From: Flagellimonas sediminis
Lineage (GTDB): Bacteria; Bacteroidota; Bacteroidia; Flavobacteriales; Flavobacteriaceae
Assembly: GCF_010500845.1 (NCBI RefSeq)
Contig: NZ_JAAAMI010000002.1
Coordinates: 62,001 to 126,000 of the forward strand
Length of the DNA: 64,000 bases
Direction of reading: 5' to 3'
This document shows positions 44,647 through 54,826 of this stretch, piece after piece. Below the pieces are notes generated by a model, which had not been told where the DNA came from, searched no databases, and saw only the letters and a list, made by a program, of their open reading frames with translations. Each line of letters starts with the position of its first letter. The first letter of the stretch is position 1. Made by a program: the position numbers and the translations under genes.

Positions 44647-45777
44647 TTACCTAAAATTTAATTCAGGAATCATATTAGCTGCTTCTTTCATTTTCTCATC
44701 AATGATTTTGGTATAGATTTCGGTAGTGCGAATTTCACGATGACCTAATCTTTTTGAAACAGTGTAAATATCCGCTCCGTTCTCAAGCAAGAGAACTGCG
44801 TTGGTGTGTCTGGCACTGTGAAAAGTAATATGTTTAGTAATTCCCGCACGCATGCACCATCGCAATATTTCAGTATTATAAATGGCTCCATATTTCAATC
44901 CTTTAAATGCTCGCTCATTATTATGCGTCCTTTTGCCCAAAAATTCCCTGGCCTGCTCGGAAATATATAAGTATTCTAGACTATCCGTTTTCTTTTGTCT
45001 AAAGATGATTCTTGCACCATTATCCTCATCACGGACTTCTGCCCAAATCAGTTTATTGATATCGCTCCACCGTAACCCTGTTAGGCAACTAAAAATAAAG
45101 GCATTCTTTAGAACTGGATACTTACACTTGGTGTTGGACAGTGCCTGTAATTCGGAATAGGTAAGGTATTCGCGTTTCGATTCGGCTTGTTCAAAGCCTT
45201 TGACAGATTTAAGTACATTTTCATCAAGATAATTCTCCGTATAAGCTTCCCGTAAAGCGGCCTTAAATTTATTGAAATAGGTGTACTTAGAATTTTGGGA
45301 CAGGGGAGTATTGCTCTTGGTTTTGGCTTTGGTATCTAAATACCGTTTAAAACCTTTTACGAAATCCGTATCTATATCCTTTAGCTGTTTGTGTGGCGGA
45401 CAGTATTTTTCGATATGTTTTTGGGCGGCATCCCAATTGCCATAATTTGCTTTCGTTTCAAAGCGGTCTTCTTTTAGTTTATCAAAATAGTCCAAAAAGG
45501 CAATTTCACCCTTTTTACCATCCCTAATTTTATATTTACCTTGAACATATTCTGCTTTTCGTATAGCAAGAATATTGTCTGCCAGCTCATAAATTTCTTT
45601 GTTCTTTCTCTTCTCCTCGGATGTGCTAGGTTTTTCTAAAGGATATAATTTCAAATATTCGAATCTTCTTCGATGCTTTTTTGTCCCATTCCTGTCAATG
45701 ATATAGCCGTCATAATATTCAATATACAGACTCAATTTATCATTCCTTAACCGTTTACTTTTCAAATTGATTTTCAT
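44647..45777 (-). CDS. Tyrosine site-specific integrase
   Basis: A 376-residue tyrosine recombinase. The N-terminus is an arm-type DNA-binding region (SLYIEYYDGYI, KHRRRFEYLKLYPLEK), then a SAM-like core-binding domain (about 100-210), then the catalytic domain: R236 in TGLRWSDINKL, H320/R323 in HSARH, H346 in RLGHREI and the nucleophile Y355 in TEIYTKI. It lies beside the right attachment site. Its promoter is packed with the AGGTGTAA-type repeats that are probably its own arm sites, suggesting autorepression. Confidence 0.95.
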   Translation of the reverse strand: MKINLKSKRLRNDKLSLYIEYYDGYIIDRNGTKKHRRRFEYLKLYPLEKPSTSEEKRKNKEIYELADNILAIRKAEYVQGKYKIRDGKKGEIAFLDYFDKLKEDRFETKANYGNWDAAQKHIEKYCPPHKQLKDIDTDFVKGFKRYLDTKAKTKSNTPLSQNSKYTYFNKFKAALREAYTENYLDENVLKSVKGFEQAESKREYLTYSELQALSNTKCKYPVLKNAFIFSCLTGLRWSDINKLIWAEVRDEDNGARIIFRQKKTDSLEYLYISEQAREFLGKRTHNNERAFKGLKYGAIYNTEILRWCMRAGITKHITFHSARHTNAVLLLENGADIYTVSKRLGHREIRTTEIYTKIIDEKMKEAANMIPELNFR

Positions 45778-47869: not shown

Positions 47870-48532
47870 TTGGAAGAAGTTGTGATTTTTGGTGCCTCAG
47901 GCCATGGCAAGGTCACCATTGATATTCTGGAATGTATGGGAAACCATGAAATCATAGGTTTTCTGGATGCAAATAAACAGCAGGGCACCCAAGTTTTGGG
48001 CTACCCTGTCTTTGGAGGTATGGAACAAGTTCCCGAATTGCTCCAGAAAAAGCCTGACCTTAAGTTTTTTGTGGCGATTGGCGATAACTGGGCTAGATAT
48101 AACGTGATCCAACAATTAAAAAACATCAATTCCAATGTTAGCTTTGTGAATGCCATACATCCAAATGCCATCATAGGGAAAGGGGTAAAACTTGGCACTG
48201 GAATTATGATTATGGCAGGCTCCATTGTTAACACTGATAGTAGTATTGGTAACTTCACTATTGTGAATACCAGATCTAGTGTAGGGCATGAATCCTGTCT
48301 TATGGAATTCAGTAGTCTTGCACCAAATACAACACTTGCGGGTAATGTGGAAATAGGAGCTTTCTCGGCAATTTCCATGAGCACAACCATTTTAAACAGA
48401 AGAAAGATTGGCGAACATACCGTTGTTGGAGCAGGCTCTCTAGTTACCAAGGATGTAAAGGACCATGCAGTTTATTATGGAATCCCGGCCGTTTTTATTC
48501 GGTCTAGGAATGAAGGTGACAAATATTTGTAA
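47870..48532 (+). CDS. NeuD/PglD-like sugar O/N-acetyltransferase
   Basis: A 220-residue enzyme with an N-terminal Rossmann-like PglD domain (EVVIFGASGHGKVTIDILEC) and a left-handed beta-helix from about residue 95, with RSSVGHESCLMEFSSLAPN holding the catalytic-type His. It ends GIPAVFIRS. PglD members acetylate UDP-4-amino-6-deoxy sugars. The start is TTG; no ATG is available before the conserved first strand. TAAATTTG at 47,848-47,855 is a possible -7 element. It may supply the missing step for the PglE/PglF-like pair near 16-19 kb. Confidence 0.87.
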   Translation: MEEVVIFGASGHGKVTIDILECMGNHEIIGFLDANKQQGTQVLGYPVFGGMEQVPELLQKKPDLKFFVAIGDNWARYNVIQQLKNINSNVSFVNAIHPNAIIGKGVKLGTGIMIMAGSIVNTDSSIGNFTIVNTRSSVGHESCLMEFSSLAPNTTLAGNVEIGAFSAISMSTTILNRRKIGEHTVVGAGSLVTKDVKDHAVYYGIPAVFIRSRNEGDKYL

Positions 48533-48603
48533 ATACTTTGATCCTTGCTGGTATGTTTTAAACTTTAATAATAGATTTAGCAGGATTACCAACATTTTCC
48601 TTG

Positions 48604-49908
48604 ATGAGCTTATTGAACGTATTTCGGCGTGAAGCCTTCTGGTTTTTGGATATGATTAAGGGGTCGCCTATTAAAAATCATCTCAATGAAATTGCCGGTA
48701 TTGTTGGAAATCCGGAAAGTTCAGAATCCCTGGAAAAAAGAAATCAGAACTTGACCCTGCTACTTGAACATGCGATTAGTACCACCAATTTTTATAAAGA
48801 ATATAAGGGTTTAAAGTCCCTTCAAGATTTCCCTGTCATCAATAAGAATATCATTCTGGATAACTATGAAAGGTTCAAATCTGATGTTTTTGTAAAGAGT
48901 AAATTGACCAAAGTTTCTAGTAGTGGATCTACCGGTATTCCTTTTAAAATCTATCAAAATGGGAATAAACGGCTGAGAAATACGGCAGATGTACTTTACT
49001 TTTCAGAATCTGCTGGAACAATCTTGGGTAATAGGCTTTATTTCTTCAAATTATGGGATTTTAAGAATCGAAAGAACAAATGGGTGTCCAAAATGCAGAA
49101 CATCCATGCCCATAGTGTTATGGATGCGGATTCAGGATCTTTGAAAAAGCTAGTGTCCCTTATTGAAAAAGACAATCAACCCAAGAATATTTTGGGGTAC
49201 CCGTCCTTCTTTGAAGAATTGTGCCAATTTTTGGATGGACAGACAACCAAGCCGAATTTTAAAAATGTCAGTTCCATTATATCGTTTGCAGAAAAATTGA
49301 AGAATTCTGAAAAGTCGCGAATGGTCAACTATTTTGGTGTTCCCGTTTTTGAGCGCTATTCAAATCAGGAAAATGGCATTTTGGCCCAGCAAACTTTTAT
49401 TTCTCCCGAACAGTATGTGTTGAATTGGGGAAGTTATCACTTTGAGTTTTTACAGTTGGATAATGATCTTCCCGCAAGAAATGGCGAATTGGGCCGTGTC
49501 GTGGTGACCGATTTCTTCAATTACGCCATGCCTATGATCAGATATGACACAGGCGATCTTGCCGTATATGAGGTTAATGAAGAGGGAACAGTTTATCTGA
49601 CCTCCATTGAAGGACGAAGAATCGACCAGATATTCGATATACAAGGAAATCCAATTTCTTCCCACTTTCTATATTTGATTTTGGAGTTTGGCGCTATCAG
49701 GCAATTTCAATTTGTTCAAAAAGGGGAGAAGGAATATCTGGTAAAACTCAATGCCAAGAAACAACAGGTAAATGAGGAAAAAATCTCATCTTACTGTAAA
49801 AGCCGATTGGGAACCAATGCCCATATTTCATTTGAATATGTAGATGAGATTCCTTTACTGGCATCAGGAAAACGAAAGAAAATAGTAAATGAGCATAAAA
49901 AAAGCTAG
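48604..49908 (+). CDS. CapK/PaaK-like adenylate-forming enzyme
   Basis: A 434-residue member of the phenylacetate-CoA-ligase/CapK group. The ATP-binding loop is VSSSGSTGIPFKIYQNG near 107-123; LAVYEVNEEGTVYLTSIEGR near 320-340 and SGKRKKIV at the end match the family. CapK-like proteins occur in capsule loci and are thought to activate acyl or carboxyl groups. The ATG is preceded in frame by a TTG, one codon upstream. It follows the NeuD-like gene by about 70 bp and probably shares its operon. Confidence 0.82.
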   Translation: MSLLNVFRREAFWFLDMIKGSPIKNHLNEIAGIVGNPESSESLEKRNQNLTLLLEHAISTTNFYKEYKGLKSLQDFPVINKNIILDNYERFKSDVFVKSKLTKVSSSGSTGIPFKIYQNGNKRLRNTADVLYFSESAGTILGNRLYFFKLWDFKNRKNKWVSKMQNIHAHSVMDADSGSLKKLVSLIEKDNQPKNILGYPSFFEELCQFLDGQTTKPNFKNVSSIISFAEKLKNSEKSRMVNYFGVPVFERYSNQENGILAQQTFISPEQYVLNWGSYHFEFLQLDNDLPARNGELGRVVVTDFFNYAMPMIRYDTGDLAVYEVNEEGTVYLTSIEGRRIDQIFDIQGNPISSHFLYLILEFGAIRQFQFVQKGEKEYLVKLNAKKQQVNEEKISSYCKSRLGTNAHISFEYVDEIPLLASGKRKKIVNEHKKS

Positions 49909-49950: not shown

Positions 49951-51039
49951 TTAATCCTTGCAAACATCGGCATGGGCAATCACATAAATATCTCCGGAAA
50001 GGTTTTCTTCGATATAGTATTGACCAGGTGCTACGGTAGGCTCTCCATTTTTGGTAGGGAACATAGCGCTACCAGCGTAAGTATGCGTGTCGGAAACATT
50101 ATAGGCTGCATCAATGTTATAGGTAACAGTAACATTGCCATCAATATAGCTTACGTCTACAGTACCAACCAATTCTCCTTTAGAAATGTCACACTGACCT
50201 GCACCGGCATACACATCGTAAGTAGCTTGGGTTCCTTCTGCCAATGGGCCAATGCTCCAGCCCCAACGGCTGAATCCCTCACCGATAAAGCAAGTGTTAC
50301 CGTCGGTACCACGAGCGAAAGCTGTTTCGCAGGAGGGTTCAGGTTCGCAACCAAGTGGAATGGTAACAATCACACTTTGGGTTCTTCCTGTTGGAATCAA
50401 AACTACGGCCATAACTTCTCCTGCCCCTGGTTCATATCCTTCGCCATTGGCAATGGCAGCATCCACAATTTCCTGTCCTTTGGTTCTACTCCAATCACTG
50501 CCCAAGTAAGCGCAGGTCACACAATTTTTATCATCAATCAATTCCCAAATGGCCCATTGAACATCTCCAAAGGTATAAGCGCCTCCACTTGGGCTAGCTT
50601 GCCCAACGAAATTTTGGTTTACGATCCAGTTGATCAAATCGAAGTTTCCTGGTTGTTCAAACGCTCCTGCAGGAAGCTCCGCGTAGCTGGAATATACGTT
50701 GTAATCATAACATTCATCAGCACCAAGGGAAAGGTCCACATCCACACACCAAGCAGCGTAATTTCCTGCAAGTTCAGTATCATTGATGGTTAGGTCAAAA
50801 TACGCTCCTAACAAGCTTCCTTCGCCTTTAGATGTTGTACAGGCACTTACCATGGAAGGAAGGGTAGGCAAAAGGCTTACTGTACAATCGGGAGTTTCCT
50901 CAGTTTCAGGTTTTGTTTTTTCAACCTTGGCTTTACCAGCAACACCATCTATGGAGTTGTCAACCGGTTCAACCTCGCAAGAAGTAAAGCCTATTGCGAA
51001 TATGGCAATTAAAGCTATTGTAATTTTTTTCATGTTCAA
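49951..51039 (-). CDS. Lipoprotein with candidate internal thioester domain
   Basis: A 362-residue lipoprotein (lipobox GFTSC, Cys21) with an acidic/Thr linker to about residue 50. Residues about 55-230 contain AAWCVDVD (Cys98) and GDVQWAIWEL (Gln161), matching the Cys block and the Phi-Q-x-A-Phi-W block of thioester domains (TED/TQXA), in which Cys and Gln form an internal thioester. Residues 237-360 form a second Cys-rich beta domain (CETAFARGTDGNTCF, RWGWSIGPLAEG) like ones in other Bacteroidota surface proteins. Known TEDs bind host targets covalently in Gram-positives. Assignment rests on motifs only. Confidence 0.65.
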   Translation of the reverse strand: MNMKKITIALIAIFAIGFTSCEVEPVDNSIDGVAGKAKVEKTKPETEETPDCTVSLLPTLPSMVSACTTSKGEGSLLGAYFDLTINDTELAGNYAAWCVDVDLSLGADECYDYNVYSSYAELPAGAFEQPGNFDLINWIVNQNFVGQASPSGGAYTFGDVQWAIWELIDDKNCVTCAYLGSDWSRTKGQEIVDAAIANGEGYEPGAGEVMAVVLIPTGRTQSVIVTIPLGCEPEPSCETAFARGTDGNTCFIGEGFSRWGWSIGPLAEGTQATYDVYAGAGQCDISKGELVGTVDVSYIDGNVTVTYNIDAAYNVSDTHTYAGSAMFPTKNGEPTVAPGQYYIEENLSGDIYVIAHADVCKD

Positions 51040-51189: not shown

Positions 51190-52308
51190 CTAATTGTTTA
51201 ACATTACGGGCATTACAAGCATGGTTACGTGCTCTCCCTCATCTAATCCATCGATAGGAGTAAGGATTCCCGCTCTGTTGGGCAAACTCATTTCCAAAGA
51301 GACATCGTCAGAAGAAAGGTTGTTGAGCATTTCCACTAAAAACCTGGAGTTGAACCCGATTTGCATATCATCCCCTTGGTAGGAACAGGAAAGCCTTTCC
51401 TCGGCCTTGTTGCTGTAATCCACATCTTCTGCGGAGATATTCAATTCGGCACCGGCAATCTTCAATCGGATCTGGTGGGTAGTCTTATTAGAGAATATGG
51501 AAACCCTGCGAACAGAACTCAAGAACTGGTTCCTTGAAATGGTCAGTTTGTTCGGGTTTTCCTTTGGGATTACGGCTTCGTAGTTGGGATATTTGCCATC
51601 GATCAAACGACAGATCAATTCGGTATTGTCAAAAATGAATTTGGCATTGCTATCATTGTACTCAATGGTCACTTCGGATTCAGAGCCAGCCAAAATACCT
51701 TTCAATAAGTTCAAGGGTTTTTTGGGCATGATGAATTCTGCAACCTGTGAAGCACTTACGTCCTGTCTTTGATATTTTACCAATTTGTGCGCATCCGTGG
51801 CCACGAAGGTCAAATTCTCCGGTGAGAATTGGAAGAACACCCCGCTCATCACCGGGCGAAGGTCGTCGTTACCGGCGGCAAAAATGGTCTTGTTGATGGC
51901 AGTTGCCAAAATATCGCCCAACAGGGTGGTAGAGCTTGGGTTGGAAACTTCCACCGCTTTTGGGAACTCGGCCCCATCGGCATAGGCCAAGGCATATTTG
52001 CCATGGTTGGAGCTGATTTCCACTGTATTGTTATCCTCAACTACAAAGGTGAGGGGTTGTTCCGGAAACGTTTTCAAGGTATCCAATAACAAACGTGCAG
52101 GAACGGCAATGGCACCTTCAGAATCGGAATCCACCTCCAAGACAGAACTCATGGTGGTTTCAAGATCGGATGCGGAAACCGTTAGTTGATTCTTTTTAAG
52201 ATCGAACAAAAAATTGTCCAAAATCGGAAGGGTGTTACTGTTGTTGATAACTCCTCCCAAAACCTGCAATTGTTTCAATAGATATGTACTGGATACGATA
52301 AACTTCAT
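51190..52308 (-). CDS. dnaN: DNA polymerase III beta subunit (sliding clamp)
   Basis: A 372-residue clamp protein made of three similar domains. The start MKFIVSSTYLLKQLQVLGGV and RPVMSGVFFQFSPENLTFVATDAHKLVKY are highly characteristic, and the C-terminus DEGEHVTMLVMPVMLNN is the standard ending with the hydrophobic binding pocket. An extra Met one codon upstream is possible. It encircles DNA and tethers the replicative polymerase. It is not next to dnaA or an origin here, which is usual for Bacteroidota. Confidence 0.97.
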   Translation of the reverse strand: MKFIVSSTYLLKQLQVLGGVINNSNTLPILDNFLFDLKKNQLTVSASDLETTMSSVLEVDSDSEGAIAVPARLLLDTLKTFPEQPLTFVVEDNNTVEISSNHGKYALAYADGAEFPKAVEVSNPSSTTLLGDILATAINKTIFAAGNDDLRPVMSGVFFQFSPENLTFVATDAHKLVKYQRQDVSASQVAEFIMPKKPLNLLKGILAGSESEVTIEYNDSNAKFIFDNTELICRLIDGKYPNYEAVIPKENPNKLTISRNQFLSSVRRVSIFSNKTTHQIRLKIAGAELNISAEDVDYSNKAEERLSCSYQGDDMQIGFNSRFLVEMLNNLSSDDVSLEMSLPNRAGILTPIDGLDEGEHVTMLVMPVMLNN

Positions 52309-52430
52309 CAAAGAAATTCTTTAGCATTTTTGCCTGTTCCAAGTATATTCAACCGTGAACGGGACTGTTAAAATCGATAAAAGCAAATATATCTTAAATG
52401 GTATTAGCAAAGAAACAAAATTATCAACAC

Positions 52431-54095
52431 TTAGGTGCTAAATTTCCGCTTTCGATAAAAACCGAAGAAAAGGCCGAAGGCCAGGGTCAAAAGTACTGGA
52501 AGCCCAATGTTTATGATCTGCCACTTCGATTTTTGCTCGGCAATTTTCTTCACATCAAGCAACGGAATGGCCACTTTTTTATTCCTTATGTTGATAAGCC
52601 CGTTGTTTTCAAGGAGGTAATTGGTGCTGTTCACCAAAAATTCCTTGTTGCCATAAAAGTTGCTCGTCCATTTATCATACCCCAATTCCAAAGGACGGTT
52701 GTTCCGCAATTGATTTTTAATGATATCCCCATCTGCGATCACAATCATTTTGTTGGCAGGGCCTTCTTCCACTGCATTGGCCAATTTTAGGGGTCTGACT
52801 CGATTCTTGTACATGGATGTGAAATTTCCCTCGATCAACACTGCCAACGGAAGATTTCCGTTGTTATAGGTGGCTTGGTCAGGTTGGGATGTGATCATAT
52901 CCAAACTGATCTGTCTTGGAACCCCGTCCGTTTTGGACAATGGTGAACTTTGCAGCAGAATCGTCTTTTGGTAATCGTTTTCCAAAATGTCCATTGGGCT
53001 GGTGAATTGGAGTCGCACCGCTTCAATATTGGTATTGATGGGATGGTTGTTCCGTGAAAATACCATTGGATAATAATACCAAGGCAGAGGGTTGTATTGG
53101 GAATCGTTGCCTTCTCCGGTAGCCAAAACAATTTGGGTAAAATACAGGTCGTTCACCAAAACGGGATTGATCCTCACCCCGTACTTGAAGAATAGATCTT
53201 TCAAATTCAGTTCCCGTGGTAAGGCAAAAGCACTTCCGCCACCGGTATAAATGCTGTCCATTTCCATGGCCACTTGATCGATCATCCATATCGATTTCCC
53301 GCCTTGTACCATGAATTGGTCCATCACGTATTTTTCTTCATCTGAAAAGGCTTCGGTTGGTTTGGCGATGAGGGCCAGATCAAAGTTTTTCAGTTGGTCC
53401 AAAACCTTTTGGGGATTGCTGGCTACTGAATCTAAAGTGATGGCACCGATGTTGTAATATTCCCTTACCGTGGATAAATAATCGGCGATATAGATGTCGC
53501 CTAATTCTCCATTGCCCTTAATGACGGCAATACTTTTTTTATCGGTAGCGCTTAATTTGGTAAAAGCATCCGCAAAGGCATATTCCAATTCTTGTACGGA
53601 GTTGTTGATGCGTTCTTCGGCCGTAGAACCCTGTTTGTTCTTGAGCAAAGGGACTTTAACGGTTTGGTCCTTGTAATTCACCATGGCCCAAGGAAAAACC
53701 AGTTCGTTGGAAACCTTTCCGTTTTCCTCGATGGTGACACTTGCCGGTTTCAAGCCCAAACTTTGCAGTTCGGCAATGGTCTGTTCGGCCTGGGTTTCAT
53801 CTGCTAGGGGATCCACCAAATTGTAGGAGATGTTTTTATTCTTGACGACAAAGGATTCCATCAATTGAACGGTCTCCGACTTTAATTTGGAAAATTCCGC
53901 AGGAATGCTCCCGTCCAATAAAATATCGATGATGACAGGGGAATCAAATTTCTGGGCGACTTCCACCGCTGGTTGTGAAAGGGTATACCGTTGGTCCTCG
54001 GTCAGGTCAAAGCGAGTGTACACAAATCCGGCCAAGATATTCAATACGATCAGCGCAACCACGGCTTCCAATATGGCTATCCAAAACTTTCCCAT
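52431..54095 (-). CDS. gldG: Gliding motility ABC transporter substrate-binding protein GldG
   Basis: A 554-residue protein: N-terminal membrane helix (AVVALIVLNILAGFVYTRF), a large periplasmic ABC_transp_aux domain (YTLSQPAVEVAQKF, SIAVIKGNGELGDIYIADYL, FDLALIAKPTEAFSDEEKY) and a C-terminal helix (IINIGLPVLLTLAFGLFFGF) before a basic tail. The start overlaps the gldF stop by one base (TAATG). With GldF and the ATPase GldA (elsewhere), it forms an ABC system that supports gliding in flavobacteria. Confidence 0.94.
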   Translation of the reverse strand: MGKFWIAILEAVVALIVLNILAGFVYTRFDLTEDQRYTLSQPAVEVAQKFDSPVIIDILLDGSIPAEFSKLKSETVQLMESFVVKNKNISYNLVDPLADETQAEQTIAELQSLGLKPASVTIEENGKVSNELVFPWAMVNYKDQTVKVPLLKNKQGSTAEERINNSVQELEYAFADAFTKLSATDKKSIAVIKGNGELGDIYIADYLSTVREYYNIGAITLDSVASNPQKVLDQLKNFDLALIAKPTEAFSDEEKYVMDQFMVQGGKSIWMIDQVAMEMDSIYTGGGSAFALPRELNLKDLFFKYGVRINPVLVNDLYFTQIVLATGEGNDSQYNPLPWYYYPMVFSRNNHPINTNIEAVRLQFTSPMDILENDYQKTILLQSSPLSKTDGVPRQISLDMITSQPDQATYNNGNLPLAVLIEGNFTSMYKNRVRPLKLANAVEEGPANKMIVIADGDIIKNQLRNNRPLELGYDKWTSNFYGNKEFLVNSTNYLLENNGLINIRNKKVAIPLLDVKKIAEQKSKWQIINIGLPVLLTLAFGLFFGFYRKRKFST

Positions 54096-54826
54096 TAGCG
54101 AGGCAATTGTTTTAAACGTTGAAACGTGAGATACAGGAACAACAGGGCGAGCGAGACAAAATAAACAAGGTCCCTCGTATCGATAACCCCACGGGCAATA
54201 CTGTCAAAATGGGCCTTGGCCCCAAACCCTTTCAAAATTTCCTGGGTTTCCCCATCGGTGAAAAGCGAAGCGGAGGCATCAAACCCATTGAAAATCAAAA
54301 AGCATATCAAAATCCCCACCAAAAACGAAATAATCTGATTGTCGGAAAGGGTAGAAGCAAACACCCCAATGGCCGTGTAGGAACTTATAAGAAATAGCAG
54401 TCCAAAATAGGAGCCAAAAACAATCCCCAAATCATAATTACCTTCGGTCATGCCCAATTTGGAAATGGCAAAGACGTAAATTATTGTTGGCACTACGGCT
54501 ATCACACACAACAGAACGGCTCCCCAAAATTTGCCCAATACCAACTTCCAGACAGAAACGGGTTTTATCAATAATAGCTCCAATGTTCCCATTTTCCGTT
54601 CTTCCGAAAAACTCTTCATCGTGATGGCTGGAACCAAAAAGATAAAGATCCATGGAGCGAGCAGGAAGAAATTGCCCAAGTCTGAAAAGCCATAATCAAA
54701 AATGTTGTACTCTCCTTTAAAGACCCATAAAAAGAGCCCGTTGAGCAATAAAAACGACCCCACGATCAAATAACCGATAGGCGACGTAAAAAAGGACCGT
54801 ACCTCTCTCTTGAAAATCGCGAACAT
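54095..54826 (-). CDS. gldF: Gliding motility ABC transporter permease GldF
   Basis: A 243-residue permease with six membrane helices. MFAIFKREVRSFFTSPIGYL is the standard start of this ABC-2 subfamily, and TMKSFSEERKMGTLELLLIKPVS is the cytoplasmic coupling segment. It overlaps by one base both the preceding monooxygenase-like gene and gldG, so translation is coupled along the operon. Confidence 0.95.
   Translation of the reverse strand: MFAIFKREVRSFFTSPIGYLIVGSFLLLNGLFLWVFKGEYNIFDYGFSDLGNFFLLAPWIFIFLVPAITMKSFSEERKMGTLELLLIKPVSVWKLVLGKFWGAVLLCVIAVVPTIIYVFAISKLGMTEGNYDLGIVFGSYFGLLFLISSYTAIGVFASTLSDNQIISFLVGILICFLIFNGFDASASLFTDGETQEILKGFGAKAHFDSIARGVIDTRDLVYFVSLALLFLYLTFQRLKQLPR

Follow-up and report, generated by a model that had tools for sequence, protein, structure and literature searches.

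The question raised by this locus is whether a lipoprotein of a Gram-negative bacterium carries an internal thioester and, if so, between which residues and for which target. The gene lies in a 64,000-nucleotide stretch of Flagellimonas sediminis DNA (contig NZ_JAAAMI010000002.1, positions 62,001 to 126,000), which we call the window and whose own numbering is used throughout. A first-pass annotation had proposed that the encoded lipoprotein contains a thioester domain (TED) whose bond joins the Cys of a WCVD motif to the Gln of a VQWAIW motif. The domain was supported, in fold and in family, by structure matches, by Pfam TED matches of relatives, by profile comparison and by cysteine patterns; the bonding pair was not. 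In our reading, which we consider probable, the protein is a divergent TED lipoprotein in which a predicted thioester between Cys96 and a second glutamine, Gln219, would trap a target nucleophile, either at a surface or in a matrix.

Fold and family of the lipoprotein

The reading frame and both motifs were found at the annotated position. The residues named there as Cys98 and Gln161 are our Cys96 and Gln159, the annotation having counted from a TTG two codons upstream of the ATG at 51033. Cys96, Gln159, Ala161 and Trp163 are each present in all 42 distinct flavobacterial TED domains that we retained (the window's included; weak or partial domains, i.e. with E >1e-10 or a start after model position 20, and exact duplicates were left out), so that the motifs of the window protein go beyond chance.

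An AlphaFold model of the full protein, built on 15 sequences (alignment A1), places four strands, three helices and two strands in this order up to residue 228, which fits published descriptions of TEDs. When residues 56-228 were compared with the PDB by Foldseek, CpTIE-TED accounted for seven of the top eight rows and the adhesin FNE, which we take to be a TED as well, for the remaining one, with probabilities of 0.98-1.00 and E-values of 1.1e-3 to 1.2e-2; the ninth row had a probability of 0.04. VIA-align 2 retrieved ten PDB entries representing six proteins (CpTIE, Cpa, FNE, BaTIE, EfmTIE86 and SfbI) at Z 6.9-9.5, the best entry (5a0d_D, Z 9.5) having a root-mean-square deviation of 4.2 over 151 residues; the next Z was 2.8. 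Fold comparison alone matched: sequence searches of the PDB with the window protein, with alignments A1 and A3 and with one Bacteroidota PF08341 protein found no TED.

Three motifs characteristic of TEDs can be traced on the model. The early-strand Cys motif is represented by WCVD, with Cys96 closing strand 90-96, the helical TQxxPhiW motif by VQWAIW in helix 155-166 (with V for T), and the last-strand PhiQzPhiPhi motif by TQSVI, with Gln219 directly before strand 221-226. About 10 residues separate helix 183-196 from strand 207-214 in the model; a linker of this length leaves no room for the beta-sandwich insert of class II TEDs. Strand 108-115 and helix 128-140 enclose the position of the alpha0 helix in class I TEDs; the model shows no helix there.

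Sequence comparison also bears on family membership. At E<=1, the Pfam TED model (PF08341) recognized 32 of the 42 flavobacterial domains, with a best E-value of 2e-5, but missed that of the window protein; of ten whole relatives tested against it, only L057 scored above the cut-off (22.1 vs 22 bits), L055 being slightly below. Within the phylum, the same model matched 18 of 198 genomes, the frames concerned measuring 228 to 2263 aa, and none of 14 control genomes, so that Bacteroidota TEDs already exist in the database sense. Profile comparison of the family with ten of these Bacteroidota PF08341 proteins (L023-L032) gave a probability of 51.8 and a score of 36.4, with Cys aligned on Cys and Q.AIW on Q.AIW; 100 column shuffles reached at most 1.7 (probability) and 21.7 (score), and the reversed profile 0.2. 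PF08341 had no match among the 11 domains of alignment A5, which come from another family of the phylum (f36); these f36 domains are linked to the family through alignment A3, whose matches in f36 genomes have E-values of 4e-10 to 3.5e-4, and through common motifs.

The lipidation that had been proposed agrees with a lipobox-like IGFTSC ending at Cys19, the residue predicted to be modified, and a lipobox-like Cys was recognized by a script rule in 41 of the 42 family proteins (the window's included). The lipoprotein export signal (LES) of surface-exported Bacteroidota lipoproteins is described, in the part of PMC5080379 available to us, as acidic, C-x-K-(D/E)2 after the Cys. After lipidation the window protein would begin with CEVEPVD, in which the K of this motif is absent; the strict motif occurs in 4 of the 41 lipobox proteins of the family Flavobacteriaceae (f1), and two or three acidic residues are present at +2 to +7 in 32 of them. 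Neither an LPXTG motif or other sortase signal nor an isopeptide or ester stalk was found in the window protein by sequence inspection and Pfam. The one match in NCBIfam, a weak one to the PG1828-family signal peptide (20.3 vs 50-bit cut-off), was set aside as lipoprotein signal similarity.

The other cysteines of the domain appear to have partners of their own. C65 and C108 are both present in 28 of the 42 domains and both absent from 14, and never occur singly; C171 and C174 form a CxxC, and in L021 and L022 the only in-domain cysteines are this CxxC pair and Cys96. This pattern suggests that Cys96 is an unpaired cysteine, as expected of a thioester Cys. A disulfide at this residue, which the earlier proposal had named as a finding that would speak against it, is not indicated by such pairing.

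The predicted glutamine partner of Cys96

In solved TEDs, the thioester Gln belongs to the PhiQzPhiPhi motif on the last strand, and the Gln of the TQxxPhiW motif hydrogen-bonds the Cys backbone and is non-essential (PMC4450167 and PMC6194298, in the parts accessible to us). The pairing of Cys96 with Gln159 was thus a misassignment: the last-strand Gln is here Gln219 (Gln221 in the numbering of the first-pass annotation), a second invariant glutamine (42 of 42 domains) that had been missed. The spacing between Cys96 and Gln219 is 123 residues, vs 129 between the corresponding residues of CpTIE. The VIA alignment, of which the end-points only were used, places model residue 227 on CpTIE residue 275, eight past the thioester Gln267, and so leads to residue 219.

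The f36 TED domains offer a further view of the pair. From the 66 collected, four partial rows missing one of the two regions were dropped, leaving 62. The Cys is kept in 55 of these, all of which have the helix Gln, and the strand Gln column of the 55 rows holds Q in 52 and D in three. In the other seven, L or S stands in place of the Cys; there, the strand Gln has given way each time to another residue (D, S, P, E, Y, Y, V), and both the Gln and the Trp of the helix persist throughout. In the Cys-bearing rows 22 other columns are at least 85% conserved; those missing from every one of the seven are the strand Gln and two more, a W and a P. This co-loss supports the pairing of Cys96 with Gln219, short of proving it. 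The seven proteins (L101, L121, L122, L125, L141, L142 and L144), whose frames span several hundred residues, can be described as putative thioester-less TEDs by residue loss.

A number of observations speak against our reading. Confidence in the model is moderate (mean pLDDT 68.7, pTM 0.48, residues 99-102 and 171-175 below 50), Foldseek gave no E-value <=0.001, and a Pfam scan of the window protein was empty at E<=10. Surface exposure is predicted from just two traits of the N-terminus, the lipobox and the acidic residues that follow it. As regards the motifs, W replaces Y/F/L as the first letter of the Cys motif (some more distant relatives have Y or F), and Gln219 is preceded by Thr, which is not hydrophobic, many f36 members having V there (DVQTV). 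As regards the pair, the local profile alignment with the Bacteroidota PF08341 proteins stops before Gln219, and the global one (67.8) puts Gln219 on a Gln that precedes their insert, not on the Gln of QKLVLATP; the end-point of the SfbI alignment (Gln261, end 270) leads to residue 218, not 219; and three Cys-bearing f36 rows have D in the Gln column, which we read as an alignment shift, there being a Q on each side. Finally, the W and P columns (each 47 of 55) disappeared in all seven Cys-less rows together with the Gln, and these seven proteins are one side of one branch (support 95); since they form a single clade, the co-loss of Cys and strand Gln counts as one event.

The window protein could also have the TED fold and no thioester, acting through non-covalent binding or as a structural domain whose Cys and Gln are retained for another reason. 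We regard this as rather improbable, while noting in its favor that the Cys-less clade indicates that such domains persist without the pair and that the chemistry of the window domain is a prediction. A thioester between Cys96 and Gln159 is most improbable. Both residues are invariant, and solved structures show the TQxxPhiW Gln as a neighbor of the Cys; however, solved TEDs bond through the last-strand Gln and can dispense with the helix Gln, and the Cys-less relatives keep the latter and lose the former seven times out of seven.

If the protein is indeed a TED lipoprotein with a Cys96-Gln219 bond, its mode of action would be as follows. It would be an outer-membrane lipoprotein, the N-terminal half of which is a divergent, compact TED devoid of the beta-sandwich insert of class II. 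Once the protein is exported, Cys96 and Gln219 would react spontaneously to form the internal thioester, with Gln159 and Trp163 supporting the site without being part of the bond. A nucleophile of the target, either an amine or a hydroxyl (the case of complement C3), would then open the thioester, leaving the lipoprotein covalently bound via Gln219. The C-terminal companion domain may serve to position the target or to bind it.

Table 1. Features of the TED lipoprotein gene and of its neighbors in the window
Feature	Position	Strand	Basis or remark
TED lipoprotein gene	49951..51033	minus	360 aa counted from the ATG; the first-pass annotation started at the TTG at 51039
Signal peptide and lipobox IGFTSC, Cys19 predicted lipidated, then acidic residues	50977..51033	minus	
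Thioester domain (TED), residues about 56-228	50350..50868	minus	AlphaFold model; Foldseek and VIA-align matches to PDB TEDs
Cys96 (WCVD), predicted thioester Cys, end of strand 90-96	50746..50748	minus	Invariant, 42/42; model strands
Gln159 in VQWAIW, helix 155-166, TQxxPhiW motif, probably structural, not bonding	50557..50559	minus	
Gln219 (TQSVIV), predicted thioester Gln, immediately ahead of strand 221-226	50377..50379	minus	42/42; CpTIE offset; co-loss with Cys
Companion domain (RWGW..AGAGQC..IAHADVC), residues 230-360	49954..50346	minus	
CapK/PaaK-like AMP-forming ligase, convergent neighbor	48601..49908	plus	NCBIfam below cut-off
NeuD/PglD-family sugar acetyltransferase	47870..48532	plus	Scanned from 47939

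Companion domain, gene neighborhood and candidate targets

The Cys-rich RWGWSIG region that the earlier proposal had mentioned is present, and turned out to be a separate companion domain (residues about 230-360), which accompanies TEDs in other proteins as well. Predicted alone, it is beta-rich (mean pLDDT 76.8), and comparison with the PDB gave no clear match (best Foldseek probability 0.08 among the 50 rows listed, best VIA Z 3.4). Domains related to it stand ahead of the TED in other flavobacterial proteins (hhalign probability of 97.7) and behind it in f36 TED proteins; Lys-rich tails or DUF7467 repeats are found at the C-terminus of other flavobacterial members. The companion domain has no Pfam match and also occurs in L008 and L009, where no TED was recognized. 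TED paralogues with a short Lys/Arg-rich tail were observed in L004, L005, L013 (7340-8143) and L014 (7374-8183), the latter two lying in tandem with a window-type gene and carrying the strict C-x-K-(D/E)2 export signal.

The TED gene converges on the ligase gene, 42 bases away, which is itself preceded by the acetyltransferase gene (Table 1). The name 'CapK-like' is our own reading: Pfam gave nothing for the ligase at E<=0.001, and its NCBIfam matches all fall below the cut-off, the best being to the DVU1553-family AMP-dependent CoA ligase (4.9e-16). The ligase is the sole CapK-like match in its genome at E<=0.001. Among 33 f1 loci (L146 and L185, which are the same places as L021 and L016, having been dropped), a CapK/PaaK-like gene lies within three genes of the TED gene in 17, an ATP-grasp gene in 11, either in 25 and neither in 8; neighbor genes were defined as open reading frames of at least 130 aa (script rule) and grouped into single-linkage clusters, one representative of each named cluster being scanned. 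The CapK-like and ATP-grasp neighbors recur at dnaN-mnmE, threonine-aldolase/cysK-like and dnaB/thrS/infC-like sites (names read from the proteins). A Wzc-type kinase or ATP-grasp gene lies within three genes of the TED gene in 12 of 16 f36 loci, and in the genus a CapK-like gene (E <1e-90) is present in 5 of 7 TED genomes vs 5 of 29 others (Fisher p 0.010, kinship uncorrected). Altogether, this neighborhood points to exopolysaccharide. It must be held against it that the 33 loci share few chromosomal sites, and that the 25 are consequently not independent.

Two other parts of the neighborhood deserve mention. Positions 51190-54826 of the window hold dnaN followed by gldG- and gldF-like genes (names by eye), an arrangement conserved in the dnaN-mnmE loci. 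A recombinase-like open reading frame (by eye) at 44647-45777, beside mnmE, is a possible insertion; clustering revealed no relative of it in the other 50 neighborhood stretches, many of which do not reach that side.

The TED lipoprotein gene is accessory and patchy in its distribution. Its own genome contains one match to the window protein, and relatives are present in 7 of 36 same-genus genomes (own included); the same search matched 9 of 59 genomes overall, two of these being members of the order that match the companion domain only. Ten relative loci belong to Allomuricauda/Muricauda, Flagellimonas, Croceitalea, Muriicola and Algibacter. TED alignments matched 21 of 397 f1 genomes (own included), 4 of 296 genomes of the order sample (including the own genome and one more of f1) and 10 of 395 genomes of the phylum sample (the own genome, eight of f36 and one of f53), and an f36 alignment matched 23 of 92 f36 genomes.

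Since exopolysaccharide-type enzymes are recurrent neighbors of the TED genes, the target would most likely lie in, or be associated with, surface polysaccharide or the biofilm matrix. The cell's own polysaccharide or that of a neighbor is a live option alongside host or algal surfaces. The covalent 'harpoon' for algae or prey put forward in the first-pass annotation is a conjecture. That the protein covalently tethers exopolysaccharide or matrix made by the cell itself is a tentative proposal: it draws on the CapK-like or ATP-grasp neighbors of 25 of 33 f1 loci, on the Wzc-type kinase or ATP-grasp neighbors of 12 of 16 f36 loci and on the genome's only CapK-like match, which ends 42 bases from the TED gene. 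However, these counts come without a general background rate, save for the single own-genome copy and the genus test, CapK-like genes are also found in five TED-less genomes of the genus, and 8 of the 33 f1 loci have neither neighbor. Equally tentative is the idea of a conventional adhesin with covalent attachment to the surface of a eukaryote (sponge, alga or dinoflagellate). The patchy accessory distribution (7 of 36 genus and 21 of 397 family genomes) would suit it, and the species names hymeniacidonis, myxillae and amphidinii among the loci, presumably host-derived, suggest hosts; yet no isopeptide or ester stalk or sortase signal was found, and it is polysaccharide-type genes that accompany the TED genes at their different chromosomal locations. 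We consider it unlikely, though worth stating, that Gram-negatives possess in these proteins a self-made covalent capsule anchor, in which the own or biofilm exopolysaccharide would be grafted onto the outer membrane by the thioester and the CapK-like and ATP-grasp enzymes would add the attacking group.

Significance and comparison with known thioester proteins

TEDs are described in Gram-positive bacteria in PMC4450167, PMC6194298 and PMC8092201, and the PSI-BLAST matches reported by Walden 2015 were exclusively in Gram-positives, as far as the accessible parts of these papers go. In the accessible part of a 2025 survey (PMC12617251), a TED appears in the legend of a supplementary putative-adhesin figure, and the text covers Gram-positive, Gram-negative and archaeal examples. 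Literature on thioester domains, PF08341 or TQXA in connection with Gram-negatives, Bacteroidota or exopolysaccharide yielded, in the partial texts covered, no such lipoprotein family, with the proviso that the supplementary adhesin figure of PMC12617251 may include Gram-negative TEDs.

A compact TED family on Bacteroidota lipoproteins, encoded beside polysaccharide-type genes, would extend covalent attachment to Gram-negatives. The window TED is directly testable, as a single Cys and only two Gln residues come into question and nature provides a clade without the Cys. Should the target prove to be the cell's own polysaccharide, this would help to account for the way in which the coat is retained in some Gram-negatives.

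Among known systems, class I TEDs such as CpTIE-TED (PDB 5A0G) resemble the window domain in predicted fold, early-strand Cys, helical Q..PhiW and last-strand Gln, at about 11-12% identity to CpTIE in the structure alignment. They differ from it in having [YFL]C, an alpha0 helix and a sortase anchor, where the window protein has WCVD, no alpha0 in the model and a lipid anchor. The core lobe of the class II TEDs BaTIE and EfmTIE86 also matches the window domain (Z 8.4 and 8.1, respectively), but class II TEDs (BaTIE, EfmTIE86 and B. subtilis TIEpLS20) contain a beta-sandwich insert that the window domain lacks. The Bacteroidota PF08341 proteins L023-L032, all above the Pfam TED cut-off, share with it the phylum, a Cys motif of the YCID type ([YF]C[IV]D), the Q..IW helix and a strand with Gln, Q(K/Q)LVLATP in their case; they differ by their frames of 490 to 2263 aa and what looks by eye like a class II insert. 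Complement C3 and alpha-2-macroglobulin also possess an internal Cys-Gln thioester, in an unrelated fold and with a different motif. TIE proteins combine an LPXTG anchor with an isopeptide or ester stalk, neither of which was found in the window protein, with its 360 residues and lipobox-like N-terminus. We have accordingly filed the window protein as a divergent TED, which is neither a TIE protein nor a class II TED.
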